IMG/VR virus record: IMGVR_UViG_3300017605_000575
Location: 1-47,941 of that record
DNA: 47,941 nt
Strand: one strand, 5' to 3'
Source: a virus
A program made the position numbers and the translations under genes. Shown here piece by piece: positions 142-46,963 of the stretch (positions are counted from its first letter, which is position 1; each line of letters begins with the position of its first letter). Below the pieces are notes generated by a model, which was given only the letters and a program-made list of their open reading frames with translations, was not told the origin of the DNA and made no database searches.

Positions 142-348
142 TGCTAGGTCCTGCAGGTCCTTCAGCGCACAGGCTTCCCGGTACTCGTCGGACGGCGCGG
201 CGGCATCGCTCTCCGCCTCCTCGTCCAGCCACCGGGATTCGACTGTGAACCCCGCCGTTTGCATGATGCTTCTGATCTGCCGCATCTCCTTCTGCCGGGA
301 GAAGGCCGAGGCGATGTAGTACACCGGCTTACGCGTCCCGTTTGTCAT
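1..348 (-). CDS. nucleoside 2-deoxyribosyltransferase-like protein, N-terminal part (gene crosses contig junction)
   Basis: This is the 5' part of a 132-aa gene that starts at 348 and continues past base 1 into 47800-47750. The start is the ATG preceded by GGAGGAAG. The frame overlaps the end of the UDG-exonuclease gene by 20 bases. The N-terminus reads YYIASAFS with a basic helix after it, as in the nucleoside deoxyribosyltransferase-like (Rossmann-type) fold. A CDVFVCF strand precedes GHHTELGLALA, in which the Glu (residue 88) matches the position of the family nucleophile. Known members cleave or exchange the base of 2'-deoxynucleosides or hydrolyse deoxynucleoside monophosphates. Adjacency to polymerase genes suggests a role in the nucleotide pool. 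The exact substrate is not predictable. Confidence 0.8.
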   Translation of the reverse strand, partial: MTNGTRKPVYYIASAFSRQKEMRQIRSIMQTAGFTVESRWLDEEAESDAAAPSDEYREACALKDLQDLAGCDVFVCFCGAVGAGHHTELGLALAGGKRIVIIGRKNNIFHYLPLQE

Positions 349-1402
349 CTTCACTTCCTCCATGTTTCTTCCCCTTTCCCCAGTGCTTCCACTGCCCCTG
401 GGAAGAGTAGGCAGATGCCATAAACTGCAGGCTCGCAGGCAGCTCGGGATAGAGGGACTTGTGCAACAGGCGCAAGTCATCGCCGAGCCCGTTCACTCTA
501 ATGCCCATCTTAGTCAGGAGCCAGATGACGTCGTAGTTCGCGAAGTTTTGCCCCAGCTTGGGGACAGGGTGTTCAAGGACTCCCTTGACTGCCAGCCACG
601 CGCGTTTCTCCTGAGCGGCTGTTGGCCAGTAGCTGCGCGAGACGTTGTCAAGGCTAATGAACGGGCAATACAGCGCCTCAGCCTTATTAGGGGCGAAGCT
701 AACACCACGGATTTGTCCCCAGCCCGTTTCGATGTCGCAGGAGAGCAGTGACGTTTCGCGGCAAGGACCTGCGAGGTACGCTTCGACCTGCTCAATAGTG
801 GGACTGATTTCGAGGCTGACCTTTGGCCAGACAATGTGCGGCCCCAGCTTAGCTTGCTCAACGGCACGGATGAGGTCTCCGATACATACGGTGTAAGCGG
901 ACCACTGTCGCAGGACCATGGCAGGATGGTATGTGGGGAGTAGCTTGTAGGAGGCAAAAACTCCTGTACCCATGCGTACCGCGCCTCGGAACTGTGCGAT
1001 TTGGGTCGTGCTAGCCAGCGCAGCCAAAGCAGTTCCGCCAAGAGGAACGACAACGCAAGGGTTAACTGCTGCCAGCTCGGCAGCCAGTCGGGCCACATTG
1101 TCATTGTAGAACTTCTCCCAGTTCGCGGCGCCTAGGAACGCGCGGTGCTTCCCGATGTCATTGCCTACTAACTGCGTGGAGAACACGTTCCCGACGTAGC
1201 ACTTCTCTCGGTCAATGCCCGCCGCGCGCAGCATGCTATTCAGGCAAGAGCCCGACGGCCCCACGAAGGGACGTAGTTTGTCCACTTCGTGGTCGCCGGG
1301 TGCCTCCCCCACAAAGGCTATGCGGCTATCCCCGCCTCTCGGGAAGTCGCTGGGAACCACGCGTTCGAGCGGGCTCGGTAGGGACGTGTCACTGCCGGGC
1401 AT
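329..1402 (-). CDS. uracil-DNA glycosylase fused to DnaQ-like 3'-5' exonuclease (polymerase proofreading half)
   Basis: Residues 25-185 form a UDG-superfamily domain of the family 4/SPO1 type: GEAPGDHEVD at 32-41, followed by PFVGPSG, and the second active-site motif YHPA at 158-161. The N-terminal cysteines that bind Fe-S in classic family 4 enzymes are not evident. Residues 215-345 form a DnaQ-like exonuclease: CDIET (Asp223, Glu225) is Exo I, NFANYD (Asn286, Asp291) is Exo II, and the GDDLRLLHKSLYPELP region is Exo III with its Asp. The protein stops where a family A polymerase domain would normally begin. That domain is in a separate gene at 45269-46963. The start has GGAAG six bases upstream and overlaps the previous gene by 85 bases. 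It likely removes uracil and proofreads for the phage polymerase. Confidence 0.88.
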   Translation of the reverse strand: MPGSDTSLPSPLERVVPSDFPRGGDSRIAFVGEAPGDHEVDKLRPFVGPSGSCLNSMLRAAGIDREKCYVGNVFSTQLVGNDIGKHRAFLGAANWEKFYNDNVARLAAELAAVNPCVVVPLGGTALAALASTTQIAQFRGAVRMGTGVFASYKLLPTYHPAMVLRQWSAYTVCIGDLIRAVEQAKLGPHIVWPKVSLEISPTIEQVEAYLAGPCRETSLLSCDIETGWGQIRGVSFAPNKAEALYCPFISLDNVSRSYWPTAAQEKRAWLAVKGVLEHPVPKLGQNFANYDVIWLLTKMGIRVNGLGDDLRLLHKSLYPELPASLQFMASAYSSQGQWKHWGKGKKHGGSEDDKRDA

Positions 1403-3900: not shown

Positions 3901-4094
3901 GTCTCTCGCTCCTTAGCTAGGTCAATTCCACACTTACGCAACCGCCGGTAGAGGTAGGGGCGGTTCGTCTTCAACACCCGCGATAGCACTTCTATCTTCC
4001 CTTGGCACTGGCGTAGGTGATACTGCAGGTACATCCTCTCGAAGTTAAGCAGCCCCTTCCTTAGCGGGGTCGCGAATAACGCTTCATCCATCAT
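3888..4094 (-). CDS. Fis-type helix-turn-helix DNA-binding protein, 68 aa
   Basis: Residues 17-58 match the Fis/NtrC C-terminal HTH (HTH_8) layout: a long helix with LNFERMYLQYHLRQC, then GKIEVLSRVLKTNRPYLYRRL and KCGIDL. In the family this C-terminal helix pair binds DNA, usually as a dimer. No sigma-54 AAA+ domain is present, so it is a free-standing DNA-binding domain. It overlaps the ATPase gene by four bases (ATGA). It may act as a phage transcription factor or as a nucleoid or recombination accessory. Confidence 0.75.
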   Translation of the reverse strand: MMDEALFATPLRKGLLNFERMYLQYHLRQCQGKIEVLSRVLKTNRPYLYRRLRKCGIDLAKERETCQQ

Positions 4095-4960
4095 GGCCGT
4101 TTCACTCCTAGCGCGTCAAAGATGGTTAGCAGTCCAGTTTCAATCGGCAGGGCTCCCAGCTTCTCAAGGTCTTGGATAGGAAGCTTAGTGTCCTGGTTAG
4201 GCTGTGCATCCGCTAGCAGTACCCGCCGCACCTTGTTCCCATACGTTTTAGCCTCTGCCGCGATGACTACCGGAAAGTGCCCGGCTACCTGCTGAGGTAG
4301 CTGGCGTCCCACGGCCGAGGGAAAGAGCCGGGTTGGGATGATATCCGCCTTCGCCTCCTTGAGCGACTTAGCGAAGTCGTCATCCCCATCCGCTGCGCCC
4401 TCCGGCCCGATGATCTTCAAGTGGCTGATGACTATCACGTGATGCGTGTTCTGGGTGCTAGTCAGCCGGGAGAGGAAGGCGCCGACGTTAGCGCTCGCCA
4501 CACCATAGACGGCCCTGGTCGTGTTCAGGATCGTCTTGTTCAGCGCCGCGCGAGCATACGCCATGGCGCTGTCACTGAGCCCCGTGAGGCCGTCGAGCAC
4601 CACGATTGTATCCGCGCCCCAGTCCTTGCTCGACCCTAGGTTGTACTCCTGCTCCCCCTCCTTGTACTTCCAGTTATCCAGCGCCTTAAAGGCGTTGGCG
4701 AACGCGGTCGGCATCCCAGCCACGCCGATGATCGGCCCCTGCAGGGTTAGCTTATCCTCGAAGTTCAGGATGTCTATGTTATGCCTGAACTCCGGTTTCG
4801 TGTACTGGAGCATCGACTCGTAGTTCCCGTCGAAGTTCATGTACCTCAGCTTGAACCCCGCGTTCGCCAGACTTGCCAGACTGCTCGTCTTCCCCGCTCC
4901 AGGGTATCCTGTTATCAGCCCCTTGAATAGAGGTGTAGTCATCATCTTCTCTGCGTTCAT
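4091..4960 (-). CDS. Sak4-like RecA-fold ATPase (recombination)
   Basis: Walker A GYPGAGKTS at residues 18-26 in a 289-aa AAA_24/RecA-core protein. A hydrophobic Walker B strand ending in Asp (TIVVLDGLTG) and a sensor-like VIVISHLKI strand follow. Single-domain ATPases of this kind next to SSB and exonuclease genes are Sak4-type single-strand annealing or recombination proteins. It overlaps both neighbours by 4 bases (nuclease upstream, HTH downstream). It likely works with the SSB-like protein and the Cas4-like nuclease in replication-linked recombination. Confidence 0.78.
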   Translation of the reverse strand: MNAEKMMTTPLFKGLITGYPGAGKTSSLASLANAGFKLRYMNFDGNYESMLQYTKPEFRHNIDILNFEDKLTLQGPIIGVAGMPTAFANAFKALDNWKYKEGEQEYNLGSSKDWGADTIVVLDGLTGLSDSAMAYARAALNKTILNTTRAVYGVASANVGAFLSRLTSTQNTHHVIVISHLKIIGPEGAADGDDDFAKSLKEAKADIIPTRLFPSAVGRQLPQQVAGHFPVVIAAEAKTYGNKVRRVLLADAQPNQDTKLPIQDLEKLGALPIETGLLTIFDALGVKRP

Positions 4961-6186
4961 GGTGCCTCCCTTATGTCAACTACTGCATCACCGCGAGCGA
5001 TTTGCTCTCTTGTAAGCTTTCCCCCGTGGACGGGGGAAGTAGGAGCTTGATCATAGGATTGTTGCTCTCTCGTCTCCTGCCTCTGCCGTGTTAGGGGGTT
5101 CCACCAACTGCGCGTGAAGTTTTGCGCCAGGATCGCTGGCCTATGTTCAGGGGACGCAGCACACACCCCCTTGAATTGGCACAGATGGCAGCTGGCACGG
5201 TTCATGGGCCAGTAGCCGCTTTCTGCAAACTGCACCGCCATCGCTAGGTAGAGTTGCAACTCCTTCACAAGTTCTTCTCGCTGCTCGTCGGTCTTGTAGA
5301 AGGGCATGAAGCCAAAGCGCACTCCGCCCTGCAGGACCTGGATACCTTCGATAGCAACCCCTCGATACGGAAGCGGTCCTCTGAGCAGTTTTGCTCCAGC
5401 GAGATCGTAAACAGACACCTGCAAGTCTGGAGCGAACGGAGCAAAGTAGCCAGCTCCAAGCGTGTTCTTTGTCGTCTTGTAATCCGTGATGAACGCTTCA
5501 TTGTTCACACTCCCCAGACTCTTAACGGCATCGAACCACCCGCAGAGGTAGAACATACGGCCGCCGTTCCGGTAGATCGGCAGCACCCAGGGCACTTCCA
5601 CAAGCGCCTTATGCGGATGGTTCTCTGTTTCCTTCCAACTCAGCGGCTTGAGGTAGCCGTTTTTCACTTCCTCCGCGTACCAGATGATTAGCCGCACTAG
5701 CTGGTAGCGATCCTTCACAGGGTTGTCCGGTAGCCACTTCTCCGTCGTTTCCGTAAGAGACCCGCAGCTGCAAAACGCAGGACCGGGTGCCATGTAGAAC
5801 TTGCCCTTATGGGAAAACGGGCATTTAGCAGCATTACCCTTCGCGTTCTTGAACTTAGTCGTGCCAGTGCAGCGCCATACGCTCTCGTACGAGCCGAGAA
5901 GGGGGCGTCCCTGCGCGGCATCCCACGATAGGGTGAGAACTCGCTTGACCGCAGCCCGTAACGCCTCATCATGCCCTAACCCTTCCTCGATAATCCCCCG
6001 ATAGAATGTCTCCAGCCCATCGCCCGCTATCCGCCCGAACTCCAGGTCTACTCGCTGTGCCACTGTCTGCCAGCCCTCAACATGGGCAAGGTAATAACGA
6101 TATGGGCACGCCAGAAGCGACCGCAGCGACGTGCTATCCCAGTGAGTCTGCAGGCGAGGGTTTTCATCCGACCAAACTCCCGTCAT
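4957..6186 (-). CDS. Cas4/RecB-like PD-(D/E)XK nuclease
   Basis: The nuclease core is seen as GWFDAV (Asp219) and FITDYKTTK (Asp235 to Lys237), the D...(D/E)xK pattern. Cys27 near the N-terminus and the C-terminal CHLCQFKGVC (Cys333, 336, 342) match the four cysteines that hold a 4Fe-4S cluster in Cas4/AddB-type nucleases. An extra cysteine group (106-141, including CPFSH and CSCG) is an unusual insertion that may bind a metal. Length 409 aa. It overlaps the 46-aa gene and the Sak4-like gene by ATGA. It probably makes single-stranded ends for the ATPase/SSB pair. Confidence 0.85.
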   Translation of the reverse strand: MTGVWSDENPRLQTHWDSTSLRSLLACPYRYYLAHVEGWQTVAQRVDLEFGRIAGDGLETFYRGIIEEGLGHDEALRAAVKRVLTLSWDAAQGRPLLGSYESVWRCTGTTKFKNAKGNAAKCPFSHKGKFYMAPGPAFCSCGSLTETTEKWLPDNPVKDRYQLVRLIIWYAEEVKNGYLKPLSWKETENHPHKALVEVPWVLPIYRNGGRMFYLCGWFDAVKSLGSVNNEAFITDYKTTKNTLGAGYFAPFAPDLQVSVYDLAGAKLLRGPLPYRGVAIEGIQVLQGGVRFGFMPFYKTDEQREELVKELQLYLAMAVQFAESGYWPMNRASCHLCQFKGVCAASPEHRPAILAQNFTRSWWNPLTRQRQETREQQSYDQAPTSPVHGGKLTREQIARGDAVVDIREAP

Positions 6187-7790: not shown

Positions 7791-8096
7791 CTAACGCTTG
7801 ATTGCGAGATACTGATACCCCCAAAGGCGCGTGCGCCGCTGAACAAGGCACGCGAGTCCGGCGCGGTGCGCGTAATAGGCGGCCTGCCCCAGGCCGTCGG
7901 CTAGCTTCATGTACGCCCAAGCCGCGCGGTTGTCAAGCGACTCGGGCGGATTGTCCCTGGCGGCGGAAAGGTGCCCTAACCAGTAGCAGCACCACTCGCC
8001 CCGTCTCGCCCTTTGTAGCCAGTCCCGAAACTGCGGGACTGACCACACTTCCCTAGGACGTTCCTTCGTCCCTATTTGTGCAGGCTGCACTTCCAT
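7791..8096 (-). CDS. hypothetical protein, 101 aa
   Basis: The start at 8096 (MEVQPAQIGTKERP) has GGAAG five bases upstream; the longer frame reaches further into the phosphatase gene without a site. Contains WSVPQFRDWLQRARRGEWCC and a helix AWAYMKLADGLGQAAYYAHR. No recognised family. Overlaps the phosphatase gene by 25 bases, so it is probably co-translated. Confidence 0.7.
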   Translation of the reverse strand: MEVQPAQIGTKERPREVWSVPQFRDWLQRARRGEWCCYWLGHLSAARDNPPESLDNRAAWAYMKLADGLGQAAYYAHRAGLACLVQRRTRLWGYQYLAIKR

Positions 8097-9103
8097 ACGA
8101 ACTTCCGAGTCGCTGCGATCCACTGGTACCACTCCCCTTCTACACAGACCATTGCGTTATCGGTTATAGTCTTCATCGTCGGCTCGGACTTCCCCTTGTG
8201 AGCCTGCCTTCTGACCCATTTCCTATACTGCCGGATGGATAGTTTCTTGGGCTTCGGGGTCGTTACGGTGACGTACCCGCCACCGGGGCCACCCTTCCAC
8301 ACCGCTTTCGGATCGCCACCGAGATTGCTAGGAGCCAGGTAGCTATAGCCACCCCGATTATCCCCAAACTCTGCCCGCCAATCCAGGAACGGGTTGGAAG
8401 TCACGTGACACTCTGCCATATCCTCGATGTAGCGGATTTGCTCCTTACACTCCACTGCTTTCTCGCAGTATACAGCCCGTAGCCACTCTACCGGGCAGCG
8501 ATCCTTCCCCGGCCATCCATTCATCGCGGCCAGGATAGCGGCTGCAGTCCCAGTCCGGCCATGACCGCCCTGACAGTGCAGGATAACATCCCCCTCGACC
8601 TTCGCCAATGCGGCATTCAGTCGCACCCACCAGCGGCGGTCCATAGTAGGAATGCCGAAGTCAGGCCAGTCCACTATCATCTCAGGGGTCGGTTCGTAGG
8701 AGTCGAACAGTGACTTGGGCAGGAGCTTTCTCGCGCCTTTATTCCCTATTACTTCCCCGGTCTCCTCCTTTTTCCGCCACGGCTCATCCCCCATCATGTT
8801 GAGAATAAGCGCGACGGGTTTGGGCTGGCCCTTTATCCAGCGACAAACTGCCGCAGCACGGCCAACCCAGAGCTTAGCCTTCCCAACAGTCCCGAGGGCG
8901 TAGAGGCCATAATGGCAGGTTTTGCTGGTGTTATCGACACCACCTGTGGTTGTACTATCCGCACTCGGGGTCGAGGCCGACGTTGAGTTAACAATCCTAT
9001 CCACAGCGGCACTCGCCAGTTTGCAAGCGCCACTCTCGATGCACGCGGCAAGGTAGCATCGCGCCCCCTTGAGTGTGCAATTGATCCCGATATCCATCGG
9101 CAT
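8072..9103 (-). CDS. cysteine-based protein phosphatase (PTP/DSP-like), 343 aa
   Basis: The catalytic loop is HCQGGHGRTG with nucleophile Cys177 and phosphate-binding Arg183 (HCx5R), and the general-acid loop is DWPD with Asp148 in a WPD motif. Both define the cysteine phosphatase superfamily. The N-terminal 60 residues hold several cysteines and a Ser/Thr-rich stretch; the C-terminal 90 residues are basic and unrecognised. The start overlaps the stop of the PEP-synthase-like gene by one base (TAATG), so the two are translationally coupled. It may act on phosphoproteins of the host or on the product of its partner. Cellular phosphatases with this signature act on Tyr/Ser/Thr phosphate or on RNA 5' ends. 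Confidence 0.85.
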   Translation of the reverse strand: MPMDIGINCTLKGARCYLAACIESGACKLASAAVDRIVNSTSASTPSADSTTTGGVDNTSKTCHYGLYALGTVGKAKLWVGRAAAVCRWIKGQPKPVALILNMMGDEPWRKKEETGEVIGNKGARKLLPKSLFDSYEPTPEMIVDWPDFGIPTMDRRWWVRLNAALAKVEGDVILHCQGGHGRTGTAAAILAAMNGWPGKDRCPVEWLRAVYCEKAVECKEQIRYIEDMAECHVTSNPFLDWRAEFGDNRGGYSYLAPSNLGGDPKAVWKGGPGGGYVTVTTPKPKKLSIRQYRKWVRRQAHKGKSEPTMKTITDNAMVCVEGEWYQWIAATRKFVWKCSLHK

Positions 9104-11010
9104 TAGTGCAACTCCTTAACACGGACAAGCGGGCAGATGGCGCAGGAGGAATCGCCGCAGGATGGGACTTTCTTTTTCTTTTTCTTCTTCCCAGGCTTTC
9201 CAGACTCATCATCGCCTTTCACACCAGTACAGATAAACATAGCCTGCGGGGACATGAGGCCAAGCTGCGGGAACCGGGCGCATTGGTCAATCTCGGAAGC
9301 CCCGGCCCATTTGTTCAGCACACGGCCGCCGTTGTGTGCCAGACACACCGCCATGTTGTAGCACATGGAGACCTCGGCCCAGGTACGCTCGCACGGACGT
9401 TTCTTGAATTTGATAATCGCCGTGCAGAGCTTTCTCGCCGCCTTGCTGCTATCCCTCCACTTCGGGCCACCATAGCCACAGGAACCCTGCTGCCTACCAT
9501 GGCGATCAAGCCTGCGGCCGTTCCAATTGCCCCGGAAATCCTCCACACAGTTCTCCGCGATAAGGGCCAGCCGCTTGATGCTGTAGCGGTAGACACTCTG
9601 CAGCACAACGCTACGCTCGGGGTAGTTGCTCATCCCCAATTCGCGGCCGGTGATCATTTTCCACGGGATAGTCGGCGCGGCCCCTTCCGTATATCGGCCG
9701 GGACCACAGCGGTAGAAGTGGCGAGCCTCGCCCGCGCAAGCGGACACGACCAGCTTGGCCATGGTCATGACGCCGGCTGCACGCAGCCACAGCAACGCGG
9801 GGTCATTCCCCCAAACGCTCATAGCATGGAGCACACTGACGGCGAAAGCTGCACGCGACGCCCTATCCTGCGGGATAGTCTTCCGCATGTACTTGGCAAT
9901 CGCGGCGTAGTCTGCTTTCGTCAGCGGCGGCGGCTGATTGTCCGCAGGCTGAAGGATGGTTCCGATTGCCAACGTCTCGGGCGCGTCGGCGAAGGGACCT
10001 TCAGTCAGGACGGCAAACTTGTTCGCCAACCCATGCACCGCGCAATGGGACGTCAGCGAACTATTGCGGATAACGATAGCCGTCCCCTTGGGCGCGCCAG
10101 CAACTCGCTTCTCCCAGAGCAGCAAATTCTCCTGCTCCTCGAAGGTCGGGACAATTACGTTCTGGACTATGTAATCCTTCTCCGGAACGTAGTTGCCACC
10201 GATAGCTACCTCTGCCGGCCCATCGCGCATCTGGACAATCGTCGGATTGCCATCGTCTTCCACAACCTCGATGTAGACGGAACCGTGCATCTCCGCGCCG
10301 AAATTCCTATGCGCACGCTTCAGGTGGTCGGTGATACCCTGGTCCTGTTTCTTGGGCGGGACCGGGAGCATGACCTGCTTCCCCTTTCCTCCCGTGACAC
10401 CAGCGTTGCCCATGCCCCAAACCACGCCACTATCGGTCACAACCGCGCTTGCGCGTCCGGTAAGCGGCGCCATGAGCATAACTTCGCCAAGCCTATCGGC
10501 TGCCATCGTCTCGGCAACCACGCCCAGCAATTCCTCCCGGTTATTCACAATCCGGCTTTCCACGAAGCCATGACGGGGCCGACGGGGGCACGGACGGGCA
10601 AAGAGCGGGTAGTTGTAGGTGCTCATGTCCCCATAGCACTGCGGGAGAACGGATTGGATCGGCGCAATCGCCAACCAACGCGGGATAGCGCTATACTGGC
10701 TGAGGGACGTAGCGGCCACGACACCGCGAGCCTTCTGCGTCCTGAGGGGGACGGTGTTTTTCTTATTCGGATCGTACACTCGCAGCTTGGGGACTACTTC
10801 CCACTTTTCCTTTTTCCCAAGCCCCTTCGCCCGTTTCTTGTAACCCGGTTTTTTTACTTGTGCAACCGTGTAGAAGGCGGGGAAGTAAAACGCTTTCTTA
10901 GCGAAGGTATTCTGCGACGTTTCCAGAAGTCCCTCATAAAGGTGCAGCTGCGGGGATTGCTTCCGGGTAGGATTTGGGTTTTCCTCGCCGATTTTTCCAG
11001 TATCGCTCAT
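9103..11010 (-). CDS. PEP-synthase/PPDK-like protein with swivelling phosphohistidine domain, 635 aa
   Basis: Residues 140-265 resemble the end of the ATP-grasp (PEP/pyruvate-binding) domain: HGFVESRIV, then GEVMLMAPLTGRASAVVTD and the closing strand PTIVQMRDG. Residues 305-340 match the mobile phosphohistidine domain, with RNSSLTSHCAVHGLANKFAV in place of the usual GGxTSHAAxxAR and the catalytic His at 322. In PPDK, PEP synthase and rifampin phosphotransferase this His carries phosphate from ATP to the substrate. The usual TIM-barrel PEP domain is absent; residues 365-600 are unrecognised, and the end is a lysine run followed by CGDSSCAICPL. First gene of the leftward block, coupled to the phosphatase. 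Confidence 0.72.
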   Translation of the reverse strand: MSDTGKIGEENPNPTRKQSPQLHLYEGLLETSQNTFAKKAFYFPAFYTVAQVKKPGYKKRAKGLGKKEKWEVVPKLRVYDPNKKNTVPLRTQKARGVVAATSLSQYSAIPRWLAIAPIQSVLPQCYGDMSTYNYPLFARPCPRRPRHGFVESRIVNNREELLGVVAETMAADRLGEVMLMAPLTGRASAVVTDSGVVWGMGNAGVTGGKGKQVMLPVPPKKQDQGITDHLKRAHRNFGAEMHGSVYIEVVEDDGNPTIVQMRDGPAEVAIGGNYVPEKDYIVQNVIVPTFEEQENLLLWEKRVAGAPKGTAIVIRNSSLTSHCAVHGLANKFAVLTEGPFADAPETLAIGTILQPADNQPPPLTKADYAAIAKYMRKTIPQDRASRAAFAVSVLHAMSVWGNDPALLWLRAAGVMTMAKLVVSACAGEARHFYRCGPGRYTEGAAPTIPWKMITGRELGMSNYPERSVVLQSVYRYSIKRLALIAENCVEDFRGNWNGRRLDRHGRQQGSCGYGGPKWRDSSKAARKLCTAIIKFKKRPCERTWAEVSMCYNMAVCLAHNGGRVLNKWAGASEIDQCARFPQLGLMSPQAMFICTGVKGDDESGKPGKKKKKKKVPSCGDSSCAICPLVRVKELH

Positions 11011-11315
11011 GTTACTGTTACTCCACTAGGGTTGACACCGCAGGATTGCGGCAAGCGCACTGTCTAGCACGTCTGCGGCCGGTTGCATCGGCGCAAATTG
11101 TCGCAGCTGGCGCGGCCCCTGGCGCGGCCCCTGCGTCGTTTTGTCGCATTGCCACGCGCCGCGTTTGGGCGCCTAGTGCGGCCCGCTGCGGCGTGCCCCT
11201 CGCCGTGGCCGGGGCCACTGGCTTCTGCACTCCCCCGTTGCGTTCCAGTGGCCCCACCTTGACCCTGGGGGCAAATCATGCGATTGGTTGTCTGCCGGTA
11301 AAGGAGCGGCACACC
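11011..11315. promoter_or_regulatory. divergent control region between leftward and rightward blocks
   Basis: This gap of about 305 bases separates the divergent genes starting at 11010 and 11316. It holds two copies of a 12-base unit CTGGCGCGGCCC in tandem (11107-11130), a perfect CCGCA/TGCGG hairpin near 11036-11049, and the large inverted repeat at 11211-11255. Promoters for both directions should lie here, but no convincing -35/-10 pair is seen. Confidence 0.5.
11205..11255 (+). repeat. 11-bp inverted repeat with competing short hairpin
   Basis: GGGGCCACTGG (11211-11221) pairs perfectly with CCAGTGGCCCC (11245-11255). The left arm can alternatively pair with GTGGC at 11205-11209 to form a hairpin with a CGGG loop. 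The two folds are mutually exclusive, a layout seen in attenuators. It lies upstream of the 88-aa gene at 11316. Confidence 0.45.
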
Positions 11316-44523: not shown

Positions 44524-45272
44524 TGTACGAGTCCTTTTCTTTCGTTGAGGGTTGATACTAGCTCTGGCATAAGCAGCACGCCGTTCCGCCAAGTGAGCAC
44601 GGCGAACCCCGCGCGCCAGTCGCGAGGGTTGTCTTCACTGTAGTTGTACTGCGGGCCGTAGGCACGGTCTAGGCACCCCGTGTCCACTCCGTACCGGGTC
44701 CCGTTGTAGTCTGTGAAAGGCGTGACTTTCTGCGAATGGTGATGCCCCGTGACGATAGTGCGTCCCGCCGTGACTGTATTGTTGAATGGCGCGTGATTGC
44801 CGCCCTTGTAGCGGTGCTTAATGATTGCGCCGCCACGACCGCCAACCGCGACAGCCCAGCAAGGCTCCCAGAGAGGGAAGTGATGCACCAGCCGCGTACC
44901 CTTGACGCCACGGAACTCCGGGGCGACTGCGGCGAGACGCATATTAAAACGGGCGTCGTGGTTGCCGAGGGGCCAGATGTGCCGTGCGCGCGGGGAAGCT
45001 CGTCTAATTTCCTCCAGCCTTCGCTGGACGACTTCAAGCTCCGCTTCGAGTGAGGGAAGCTCTTCCCACCCAATCGGTGGATGTCGGCTAATTGTAGAGG
45101 CATCGAGTGCGTCTCCGTTGAACACTACGATCTGCGGTTTCAGCTGCTTAGCGAAGTGAACGAAGGCCCGGTGAGCGACTGACGGCTTCCCGGGCCAGTA
45201 GTGCGCGTCCCCGCCGACTAGCACGCGGCCCTCGCGGATGGGAACGTGGATTGTAGACTTCTCACCCTTCAC
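44496..45272 (-). CDS. metallophosphoesterase, 258 aa
   Basis: All classic calcineurin-like motifs are present: GDAH (Asp22, His24), GD (53-54), GNHD (103-106) and TGHHH (175-179). Such enzymes use two metal ions to cut phosphomonoesters or phosphodiesters, including nucleic acid ends and cyclic nucleotides. GTG start overlapping the polymerase stop (GTGA). Coupling to the polymerase suggests a DNA end-processing or nucleotide role, but substrate is not predictable. Confidence 0.85.
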   Translation of the reverse strand: MKGEKSTIHVPIREGRVLVGGDAHYWPGKPSVAHRAFVHFAKQLKPQIVVFNGDALDASTISRHPPIGWEELPSLEAELEVVQRRLEEIRRASPRARHIWPLGNHDARFNMRLAAVAPEFRGVKGTRLVHHFPLWEPCWAVAVGGRGGAIIKHRYKGGNHAPFNNTVTAGRTIVTGHHHSQKVTPFTDYNGTRYGVDTGCLDRAYGPQYNYSEDNPRDWRAGFAVLTWRNGVLLMPELVSTLNERKGLVQWRGEMIQV

Positions 45273-46963
45273 TTAATTTCCACCAACCCCTTCGGGTTGA
45301 GCCTCCCTTTCTTAGGGTCGGTGTTAGCCTTCCCCCAGTTGTCGCCGATTGCAATCTCCACGGGAATTGTACACACACGCTCAACTCCCTGGAAGTCGGT
45401 AATCGGAACGTCCACGGCCATCAGGCGCCGGAGCGCTTCGACCGCCGCTTGCTCCTTGCTGACCGAGTACTGGAAGAGTATAGCGTCGTGGACCTGGGCG
45501 AGCAACTCGATTAGCCACGGATCACACTCTTTCCACACCCTCCAGAGGCCCGTGTCGAGCACGTCGGCCACCCCGCTCTGTGGGGAGAAGGCCAGCCCCT
45601 GCTTCCGCGTGTGATCGTCCCACGGGCGGCCGAAGAGGCGCACTTGACGGCGGAGTGCGTTATACAACGGGAACGCCCCCTTGACCCTCTCCGCGATGTA
45701 GCGCTGATACTCCTGGATCATCGGGAATGCGGTGAAGTAGCGCCGCTGCGCCTGCTTGGCCTGCTCGAAGGGTATCTTAGCGATCATCGCTATCCCCTGC
45801 GGGCTAAGGCCGAAGTTAGTACCGTGCTGCACACGCTTGCTCTGAAAACGGAAGTCGTGACCGGGTACGTTGTCCCACTCCGGATACGAGTTCGAGGCAA
45901 GGTGCTTGTCTTGCTTGAGATCACCCGTCCACGCAAGATCGGGCCAGAGTTCCCTAGCAACCCAAGTGTGCACGTCCCCTTTATGGGCTTCGATGTAGTT
46001 CTCGTCACCCGCCAAGTACGCGACCTGCAGAGACTCGGCAGTCTTAAGATCAGCGTAGCCAATTTTCCGGCCAGGATCAGGGATAAAGATGTGTCGGTGC
46101 TGCTCGCCGATGTTCTGGAAGTTACCCCCTCGCTGGAACGGGTCTTTGCTAGACGACCAGCGCCCCGTCCAGGCAGCGGCGACGTTGAAACTGGCATGGA
46201 AGCGGCCCCGGTCAGAGAGCTTGCAGTTCAGGAACCCCAGCTGCTTGCTGATGTCCCGCATTGTGAGGATGGCCTCGCAGAGGTCCGAAAGTCCCGGTAA
46301 AGGTCTGCGTACACGCCGCCAGCCGGGCCCGGTCCCGCTCTTCTTCGGTGCCGTGTCCACCCACGCCACCCCCGCATGACTGATCCGCTGCAGGGCGTCG
46401 TCGTCCGTCGTTACCGTCCCGTCCTTCCCATGATGCACCGGCACGCGCAGCAAGTCGTACAAGAGATGCCGACATTGTGTCGATGAACTCGCCTCGAAGG
46501 GCTTCGGGGCAACGCGTGAAGCCCCACAGTGTGTACAGAATTTCTCGGACTCTTTGAGAGGTGACTCCCCTGGCTTCCGCCTCGGCCATAAATGTTTCCC
46601 GGGGGTTCCGTTTTTCCTCGGCTTGTTCTTGGGGCAGTCGGCTCGGTTCAACTGTACCCCGTCCCACTTCTCGCGGACGAGAGGTAGCAGTTGGATAGCC
46701 TTCTCCGCTACCACTAGGTCCTTCTCTAGCTGTTTCTTCGCATCCTGCAGCGCGAAGGGGTCGATCCTGCAGCCCCGCCGGGTCATGGTAATGGAGGGTG
46801 ACAGCTGGGCCAGCGACCACTTGTATGTCCGCTCCTGGTCCGTGTCCAGCCTCGGCCGCAGGATGTCGTATATCTCCCGCGTCCCCGTCGTGTCCAGGCA
46901 CGCGTAGGCGCTGAACCCCTTCTCCCCCTGCAGAAGCTGCGCCTCTGCCAGCGTGACCTTCAT
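45269..46963 (-). CDS. family A DNA polymerase without exonuclease domain, 564 aa
   Basis: Begins at the link before the polymerase domain (YACLDTTGTREIYDIL) and lacks the exonuclease, which is in 329-1402. Motif A is ADLKTAES (Asp305, Glu310); motif B is RFQSKRVQHGTNFG with Lys376, His380 and Phe384; motif C is VHDA (His492, Asp493). His380 is at the position equal to E. coli Pol I Phe762, and Phe384 at Tyr766. A Cys/Lys-rich insertion (residues 108-165, with CTHCG) may bind zinc. AAGGGGAAG precedes the ATG. Confidence 0.9.
   Translation of the reverse strand: MKVTLAEAQLLQGEKGFSAYACLDTTGTREIYDILRPRLDTDQERTYKWSLAQLSPSITMTRRGCRIDPFALQDAKKQLEKDLVVAEKAIQLLPLVREKWDGVQLNRADCPKNKPRKNGTPGKHLWPRRKPGESPLKESEKFCTHCGASRVAPKPFEASSSTQCRHLLYDLLRVPVHHGKDGTVTTDDDALQRISHAGVAWVDTAPKKSGTGPGWRRVRRPLPGLSDLCEAILTMRDISKQLGFLNCKLSDRGRFHASFNVAAAWTGRWSSSKDPFQRGGNFQNIGEQHRHIFIPDPGRKIGYADLKTAESLQVAYLAGDENYIEAHKGDVHTWVARELWPDLAWTGDLKQDKHLASNSYPEWDNVPGHDFRFQSKRVQHGTNFGLSPQGIAMIAKIPFEQAKQAQRRYFTAFPMIQEYQRYIAERVKGAFPLYNALRRQVRLFGRPWDDHTRKQGLAFSPQSGVADVLDTGLWRVWKECDPWLIELLAQVHDAILFQYSVSKEQAAVEALRRLMAVDVPITDFQGVERVCTIPVEIAIGDNWGKANTDPKKGRLNPKGLVEIK

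Follow-up and report, generated by a model that had tools for sequence, protein, structure and literature searches.

Gene A of the viral DNA stretch considered here (IMG/VR record IMGVR_UViG_3300017605_000575, positions 1 to 47,941; this whole stretch is called the window) encodes an ATP-grasp domain, a swivelling phosphohistidine domain and an all-helical domain, named X, in a single chain. The adjoining gene B encodes a cysteine-based phosphatase of the protein tyrosine/dual-specificity (PTP/DSP) type. Gene A is the fused form of a three-part module of dikinase, X and phosphatase, because X also occurs as a gene of its own beside a phosphatase and behind a truncated pyruvate phosphate dikinase (PPDK). 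Judging from sequence and structure models, protein A is probably a dikinase-type phosphotransferase that delivers phosphate via His322 to an acceptor bound by X, and B would be a phosphatase of the same pathway. The probability of this reading is put at roughly 60%.

The gene pair and its conservation

Both genes lie on the minus strand. Gene A (9103-11010) is an open reading frame (ORF) of 635 amino acids and gene B (8072-9103) is one of 343 amino acids. The TAA of A and the ATG of B overlap by one base in TAATG (AAGGAGTTGCACTAATG), and the coordinates and overlap given in a preliminary description of this DNA, made from the sequence alone, are correct by the ORF list and the sequence. A Shine-Dalgarno sequence serving gene B, AAGGAG, lies within the 3' end of gene A (9112-9117, minus strand), and another, GGAG, precedes the ATG of gene A itself. 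An ORF of 653 amino acids also runs antisense to gene A (9106-11067, plus strand). It has no homology support and is probably a by-product of base composition; it was rejected as a real gene, as the homology, the invariant residues and the ribosome-binding sites are all on the minus strand.

A tblastn search of a phage collection gave one distant pair, that of the Manatee Spring podophages, in which the two genes are adjacent (24% and 33% identity). When IMG/VR was scanned with A as a single sequence, nothing was found; alignment-based scans recovered 15 loci at first and 35 later, and 4 were found in GTDB contigs. The plasmid collection, searched with A or X, yielded no matches. The resulting family alignment of A has 37 members, and linkage was counted over 35 distinct loci with intact flanks after removal of duplicates. 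In each of these 35, B adjoins A and lies on the same strand. Most of the fused pairs overlap or abut, two are separated by 430 and 707 bp, and in one (L037) B stands upstream of A. With more than 30 homologous pairs known, chance origin of the A–B pair is excluded. The coupling noticed earlier in this one phage thus recurs in every testable locus, with the catalytic His of A and the catalytic Cys of B invariant.

It may be argued that such linkage has no common function behind it, with two useful genes merely travelling together and A possibly being a non-catalytic binding protein. Much of the split set described below does have common flanking genes and looks like one lineage with an inherited gene order. 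However, no third gene common to all the fused loci was found; A and B alone are universal there, and the flanking genes differ widely. The pair is also kept where its order is inverted (L037), and the catalytic residues are invariant. Furthermore, a search from B alone recovered A in 66 of 80 loci. Eight of the remaining loci have a detectable X, L203 has a degenerate X-like protein recognised by eye, and most of the others have a truncated A or run into a contig end; nearly all of the remainder thus show X, a kinase or an incomplete flank. Linkage without function is, therefore, considered very improbable.

Two copies of gene A were seen in L046, and also in the record IMGVR_UViG_3300035676_000002 (L034 and L043). 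In L055 (10001-15000), the A–B pair lies on the chromosome of a member of the Acidobacteriaceae, beside ThiF and prokaryotic E2-D-like genes resembling a PRTRC cassette. Such surroundings suggest that integrated elements may be another vehicle of the module.

The kinase half of protein A

Protein A was modelled by AlphaFold2 (AF2) from an alignment that left out one row from an annotated phage record. The model has a mean predicted local distance difference test score (pLDDT) of 79.7 and a predicted template modelling score (pTM) of 0.78. It is ordered from about residue 75 to 600, and the N-terminus and the Lys/Cys tail are disordered. In a Foldseek comparison with the PDB, 42 matches were obtained at E<=1e-3, nearly all of them ATP-grasp proteins of the D-Ala-D-Ala ligase type (VanA, D-Ala-D-Ala ligase) or RimK; rifampin phosphotransferase (RPH) of Listeria matches at 1.1e-3. 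Among the viral structures of BFVD, the top match is gp139 of Bacillus phage G, a PPDK-like protein annotated as pyruvate phosphate dikinase.

The compact ATP-grasp domain detected in this way covers residues ~85-270 (10201-10758, minus strand). It holds PRHGF and the catalytic Lys, Arg and E...QxR by which the dikinase superfamily is recognised (K93, R139, E248, Q260 and R262), invariant in 37/37 members. The preliminary description had placed only the end of an ATP-grasp domain here. Its motifs are indeed present, but the domain is whole and begins near residue 85, and the predicted structure has the fold that was expected of it. Over the full length of A, the strictly invariant residues are K93, R139, H147, E176, G204, T206, E248, Q260, R262 and H322, followed in X by E428, R430, R466, G514, G515 and W518.

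The phosphohistidine domain follows at residues ~285-357 (9940-10158, minus strand). The TSHCAVHG motif read there earlier is present, and its His322 (codon 10045-10047, minus strand), which stands in the [ST]-H-x-A motif of the swivelling domain in this superfamily, is found in all 37 aligned members. When A was compared by hhalign with the PPDK-type dikinases of phages, the His322 segment registered exactly on the GGSTSHAAVVAR motif. The segment VQxRxG aligned with the LQxR motif of the PPDK-type enzymes, the two motifs being collinear in order. This comparison scored 28.3, and 60 column shuffles reached at most 21.0. The Pfam family PEP-utilizers (PEP, phosphoenolpyruvate) matched 4/38 members of the A family weakly, 0.013 at best. 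As had been stated before, no PEP TIM barrel is recognised in A by Pfam; the all-helical domain X stands at residues 360-602 instead.

Searches of the window with the PF00391 and PF01326 hidden Markov models gave nothing, and A does not reach the curated dikinase-family cut-off. No relatives were found by a PDB sequence search with A either as a single sequence or as a profile. Beyond X, the C-terminal tail (9106-9204, minus strand; pLDDT < 50) was seen by motif scan to carry a Lys run and CGDSSCAICP. It is poorly conserved, with a comparable Cys cluster in two relatives only.

Domain X and the split form of the module

Domain X (A residues 360-602; 9205-9933, minus strand) folds confidently when modelled alone by AF2 (pLDDT 91.1, pTM 0.90) and is all-helical. 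A Foldseek search of the PDB gave no fold match, with a best E of 0.49 and none to RPH. Three of its invariant residues make up the motif GGxxW, and H395, H431, H559, N560 and K567 are nearly invariant. It was also observed that X matches a standalone phage protein, PHROG 20946, by hhalign (Prob 98, E 1e-13 to 2e-14), with a score of 106 against at most 18.8 for shuffled controls. The standalone protein carries the motifs [GR]ExRH, GGxxW and HNxG...NK. Thus, residues 365-600 of A, left unassigned in the preliminary description, are one conserved and well-folded domain. The two-gene picture drawn there has to be widened to a three-part module, since the C-terminal third of A is a distinct domain that elsewhere has a gene of its own beside a separate dikinase and phosphatase. 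In L154, L190 and L218, X is joined to cysteine-rich, zinc-ribbon-like stretches in place of the kinase.

Rhizobium phage RHph_Y1_11, Rhodobacter phage RcZahn and Stenotrophomonas phage Summit encode proteins weakly related to B, and it was through these that the split cluster came to light. In all three phages, the phosphatases are grouped with a protein annotated as pyruvate phosphate dikinase and with another, called 'hypothetical', that bears the motifs of X. Standalone X is present in 40 phage records: 33 of Vibrio, 4 of Stenotrophomonas, 2 of Rhizobium and 1 of Rhodobacter. A dikinase lies ~2-4 kb from X on the same strand in all of them except AF465603, a short partial record of 5.8 kb; in a few, the stretch from dikinase to X spans the start of a circular record.

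With 80 further IMG/VR loci fetched, the split set could be counted over 87 loci. The gene order is dikinase, small genes, phosphatase 1, X and, usually, phosphatase 2. A phosphatase stands beside X in 87/87. A PPDK-type kinase precedes X in 80/87, and the remaining 7 contigs break off immediately upstream. The phosphatases 1 group in a single clade (support 0.96), apart from the phosphatases 2 and from B. Many of the split loci have flanking genes in common, so part of this conservation reflects the descent of one phage lineage. Neither the small genes nor a 281-amino-acid gene of the split cluster was found near the fused set.

The two forms are bridged by a single ORF in L216, in which residues 13-101 and 232-417 match the PPDK-type kinase and residues 441-639 match the X of A. 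This ORF passes the Pfam cut-off of PPDK_N, and of that family only.

The split kinases have been described in the literature under another role. In Vibrio phages Virtus, R21Y, LV6 and R18L, the dikinase, annotated as pyruvate phosphate dikinase, is called an auxiliary metabolic or host-glycolysis gene (PMC9229204, PMC10671443, PMC10141217, PMC10272388), which would make it a pyruvate/PEP enzyme that changes host metabolism; the Virtus and LV6 papers list the position of X as 'hypothetical'. Seven split dikinases scanned with Pfam do match PPDK_N and PEP-utilizers strongly, and the split kinase, the 'pyruvate phosphate dikinase' of PHROG 18609, is over the cut-off of NCBIfam NF004531, a PPDK model of 534 positions. 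However, a PEP/pyruvate-binding domain was found in none of the seven and is not recognised in A, and X is present instead. Without this domain, the reading as a glycolysis gene is untenable as it stands and was rejected in that form; such a metabolic role is largely refuted and is now scarcely credible. The loci L059, L060, L061 and L063, among other split loci, are those of published Vibrio phages whose 'pyruvate phosphate dikinase' lacks the pyruvate-binding domain.

The phosphatase encoded by gene B

Protein B matches PTP-SAK (PF22784) in Pfam at 4.3e-07 (30.5 bits against a cut-off of 27) and Y_phosphatase at 5.3e-05. Its family profile matches solved PTP/DSP phosphatases of the PDB at 1e-13. 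The catalytic domain extends over residues ~60-240 (8384-8926, minus strand), with C177 (codon 8573-8575, minus strand) as nucleophile, D148 (8660-8662, minus strand) as general acid, and R183 and Q222. The C(x)5R loop and the acidic Asp that mark the Cys-based PTP/DSP enzymes are, therefore, both present, and the HCx5R signature (HCQGGHGR) and the WPD loop reported earlier are as described. C177, D148, R183, E218, Q222 and Y225 are kept in 35/35 relatives.

The Swiss Army Knife RNA-repair proteins combine a PTP with ligase or kinase repair domains; in B, Pfam finds the PTP domain alone. An RNA ligase-like gene lies ~1-10 kb from the module in L026, L034, L042, L044, L052 and L154. A link to RNA repair was not relied upon, since only a minority of contigs have such a gene close to the module and phages in general often carry one. 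The name of PHROG 17568, 'thymidylate synthase', was likewise rejected. That profile is this phosphatase family, and the name, apparently a misannotation, has also entered phage records (Stenotrophomonas phages DLP3/DLP5). In the published account of phage DLP3, the two phosphatases are named signalling enzymes.

Proposed reaction and competing explanations

In the established mechanism of dikinases, the ATP-grasp domain phosphorylates the swivelling His with release of AMP and inorganic phosphate, after which the His-bound phosphate travels on the swivel to a second site (PMC4844700, PMC13400623, PMC12167813). By analogy with PPDK, PEP synthase and RPH, the ATP-grasp domain of A would pass phosphate from ATP to His322, releasing AMP and inorganic phosphate. 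The swivel would then hand it to an acceptor held by X, which would replace the pyruvate site. In A and in L216, this second site would most simply be X, as X is positioned like the pyruvate barrel of PPDK and PEP synthase; in the split phages, X would act as a separate protein. B, in turn, would dephosphorylate either the product or a compound related to it in the same pathway. The module could thereby set the phosphorylation of one target relevant to the phage.

As for the acceptor, a nucleotide, a nucleic-acid end or another non-pyruvate metabolite is favoured over a protein, on weak grounds. The pair in the window sits among replication genes (PolA, terminase, PD-(D/E)XK and Sak4-like AAA). 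This neighbourhood, together with the match of B to PTP-SAK, a label tied by Pfam to RNA repair, gives a weak lean towards a nucleotide or nucleic acid. In a bolder version, the new fold X would put the His-borne phosphate on a nucleic acid, a modified nucleotide or a host regulatory molecule, and the phosphatase would edit or reverse this. It would amount to an unseen modification or signalling pathway of phages (and of an integrated element in Acidobacteria). This proposal is speculative and, on balance, somewhat unlikely.

A different arrangement, the nearest to the idea of the preliminary description, is a phospho-switch in which X itself is the phosphoacceptor (at His, Tyr or Ser), switched on by the kinase and off by B. 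X always adjoins a phosphatase, even in contigs with no visible kinase, and several of its His residues are conserved, with Tyr replacing one of them, H431, in 2 relatives. Still, H395 and H431 are not strictly invariant, and the invariant E428, R430 and GGxxW, with the nearly invariant HN and K567, look less like a phosphosite than like a pocket for binding or catalysis. The main substrates of PTP-type enzymes are, moreover, phosphomonoesters and not phosphohistidine. A precedent does exist in VadK, a kinase with no PEP domain that has proteins as interaction partners (PMC13400623). The switch, nevertheless, is held to be unlikely. What stood of the preliminary description is a barrel-less, PEP-synthase-like ATP-grasp/His protein coupled to a Cys phosphatase and co-occurring with it in phages. 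The roles suggested for it, a 'phospho-switch', a 'host-takeover module' or action on RNA polymerase, go further than the data.

Alternatively, phosphorylation could activate a carboxyl or hydroxyl group so that X joins a second molecule to it, B then being a housekeeping phosphatase of the pathway. The NCBIfam matches of the split kinase include the PEP-synthase-like ligases PigC (prodigiosin ligase) and RedH, and the Foldseek matches of the ATP-grasp domain of A are mainly peptide ligases. Against such a ligase, the swivelling His domain is a hallmark of phosphotransfer and His322 is invariant, and no second-substrate domain was recognised. It is regarded as quite improbable.

Phosphotransfer by A to an acceptor on X, with B in the same pathway, has several points weighing against it. 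As a single sequence, A matches no family in Pfam, PHROGs, NCBIfam or the PDB. By profile alone, its kinase half shows weak homology to PPDK (E about 0.01), and the Foldseek TM-scores are low, at 0.3 of the target. If kinase and phosphatase shared one target, a futile cycle would result unless they were regulated or acted at different positions. In L210 (1-7482), a PEP-synthase-type kinase stands directly before the phosphatase and no X was found. Seven contigs with X and a phosphatase, which may be incomplete, show no PPDK-type kinase. From these X contigs without a kinase and from L210 without X, it follows that dikinase, X and phosphatase are linked but separable.

Neighbouring genes

At 329-1402 (minus strand), the window encodes a protein of the uracil-DNA glycosylase superfamily (PF03167, 1e-21), whose C-terminus weakly matches a 3'-5' exonuclease. 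A Sak4-like AAA protein, a PD-(D/E)XK nuclease and a short family A DNA polymerase are encoded at 4091-6186 and 45269-46963 (minus strand). Relatives of these last three genes are found near several other A–B pairs, and genes of L210 resemble the uracil-DNA glycosylase, AAA and PD-(D/E)XK genes of the window. PADLOC models gave no anti-phage defence match for A, B, X, the split kinase or the phosphatases.

Comparison with known systems

In the open-access literature searched, no paper links a dikinase, X and a phosphatase, and no system of the A–B pair was found, in agreement with the preliminary description. Scattered genes that go by the names 'hypothetical', 'tyrosine phosphatase' and 'pyruvate phosphate dikinase' become one testable three-part system in well over a hundred phage loci, among them those of cultured, genetically tractable phages of Vibrio, Stenotrophomonas, Rhizobium and Rhodobacter. 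X is a newly defined domain that matches no known fold and has strictly conserved residues. If its acceptor is found, a new target would be added to the small set of histidine-swivel dikinases.

Glucan water dikinase and the laforin/SEX4-type phosphatases are a case in which a His-swivel dikinase and a dual-specificity Cys phosphatase act on one substrate. The resemblance is one of analogy only, with no sequence kinship, and no carbohydrate-binding domain was found in the module. PTP-SAK/DSP-type phosphatases (PF22784) are similar to B in the C(x)5R loop and the acidic Asp, and B is over their Pfam cut-off. Unlike them, B is not fused to the repair domains behind the family name and has the extra conserved C63 and C213.

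VadK and PHROG 18609 are similar to A in having an ATP-grasp and a phosphohistidine domain with no PEP/pyruvate barrel. VadK (Rv1127c) is a truncated PPDK that serves as a regulatory histidine kinase with protein partners; its published description includes neither X nor a dedicated phosphatase (PMC13400623). A differs from both in its compact and very diverged ATP-grasp domain, its fusion to X and the PTP-type phosphatase alongside.

We know of no phosphatase partner for RPH. This enzyme, similarly to A, unites an ATP-grasp domain, a swivelling His domain and a domain that binds the acceptor in a single polypeptide, and K93/R139 of A would correspond in role to its catalytic pair Lys22/Arg117 (PMC4844700). 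In RPH, however, the catalytic His domain is C-terminal, with the rifampin-binding domain between it and the ATP-grasp domain, an arrangement not found in A, where the order is ATP-grasp, His and X.

The two-protein small-molecule dikinases HpeHI, CreHI and PpsAB (PMC12167813) resemble what the split kinase and X would be. In HpeHI, the His and acceptor domains form one chain and the ATP-grasp domain is separate, whereas in the split phage set, the ATP-grasp and His domains form one chain and X is separate. PEP synthase and PPDK have the same order of ATP-grasp, His and acceptor domains as A, along with the GGxxSHxA His motif; A lacks their PEP/pyruvate TIM barrel and has X in that place. The A–B pair is better described as the fused version of a three-part phosphotransfer module that is widespread in phages and includes a previously undescribed domain; it is a new form of the histidine-swivel dikinases.

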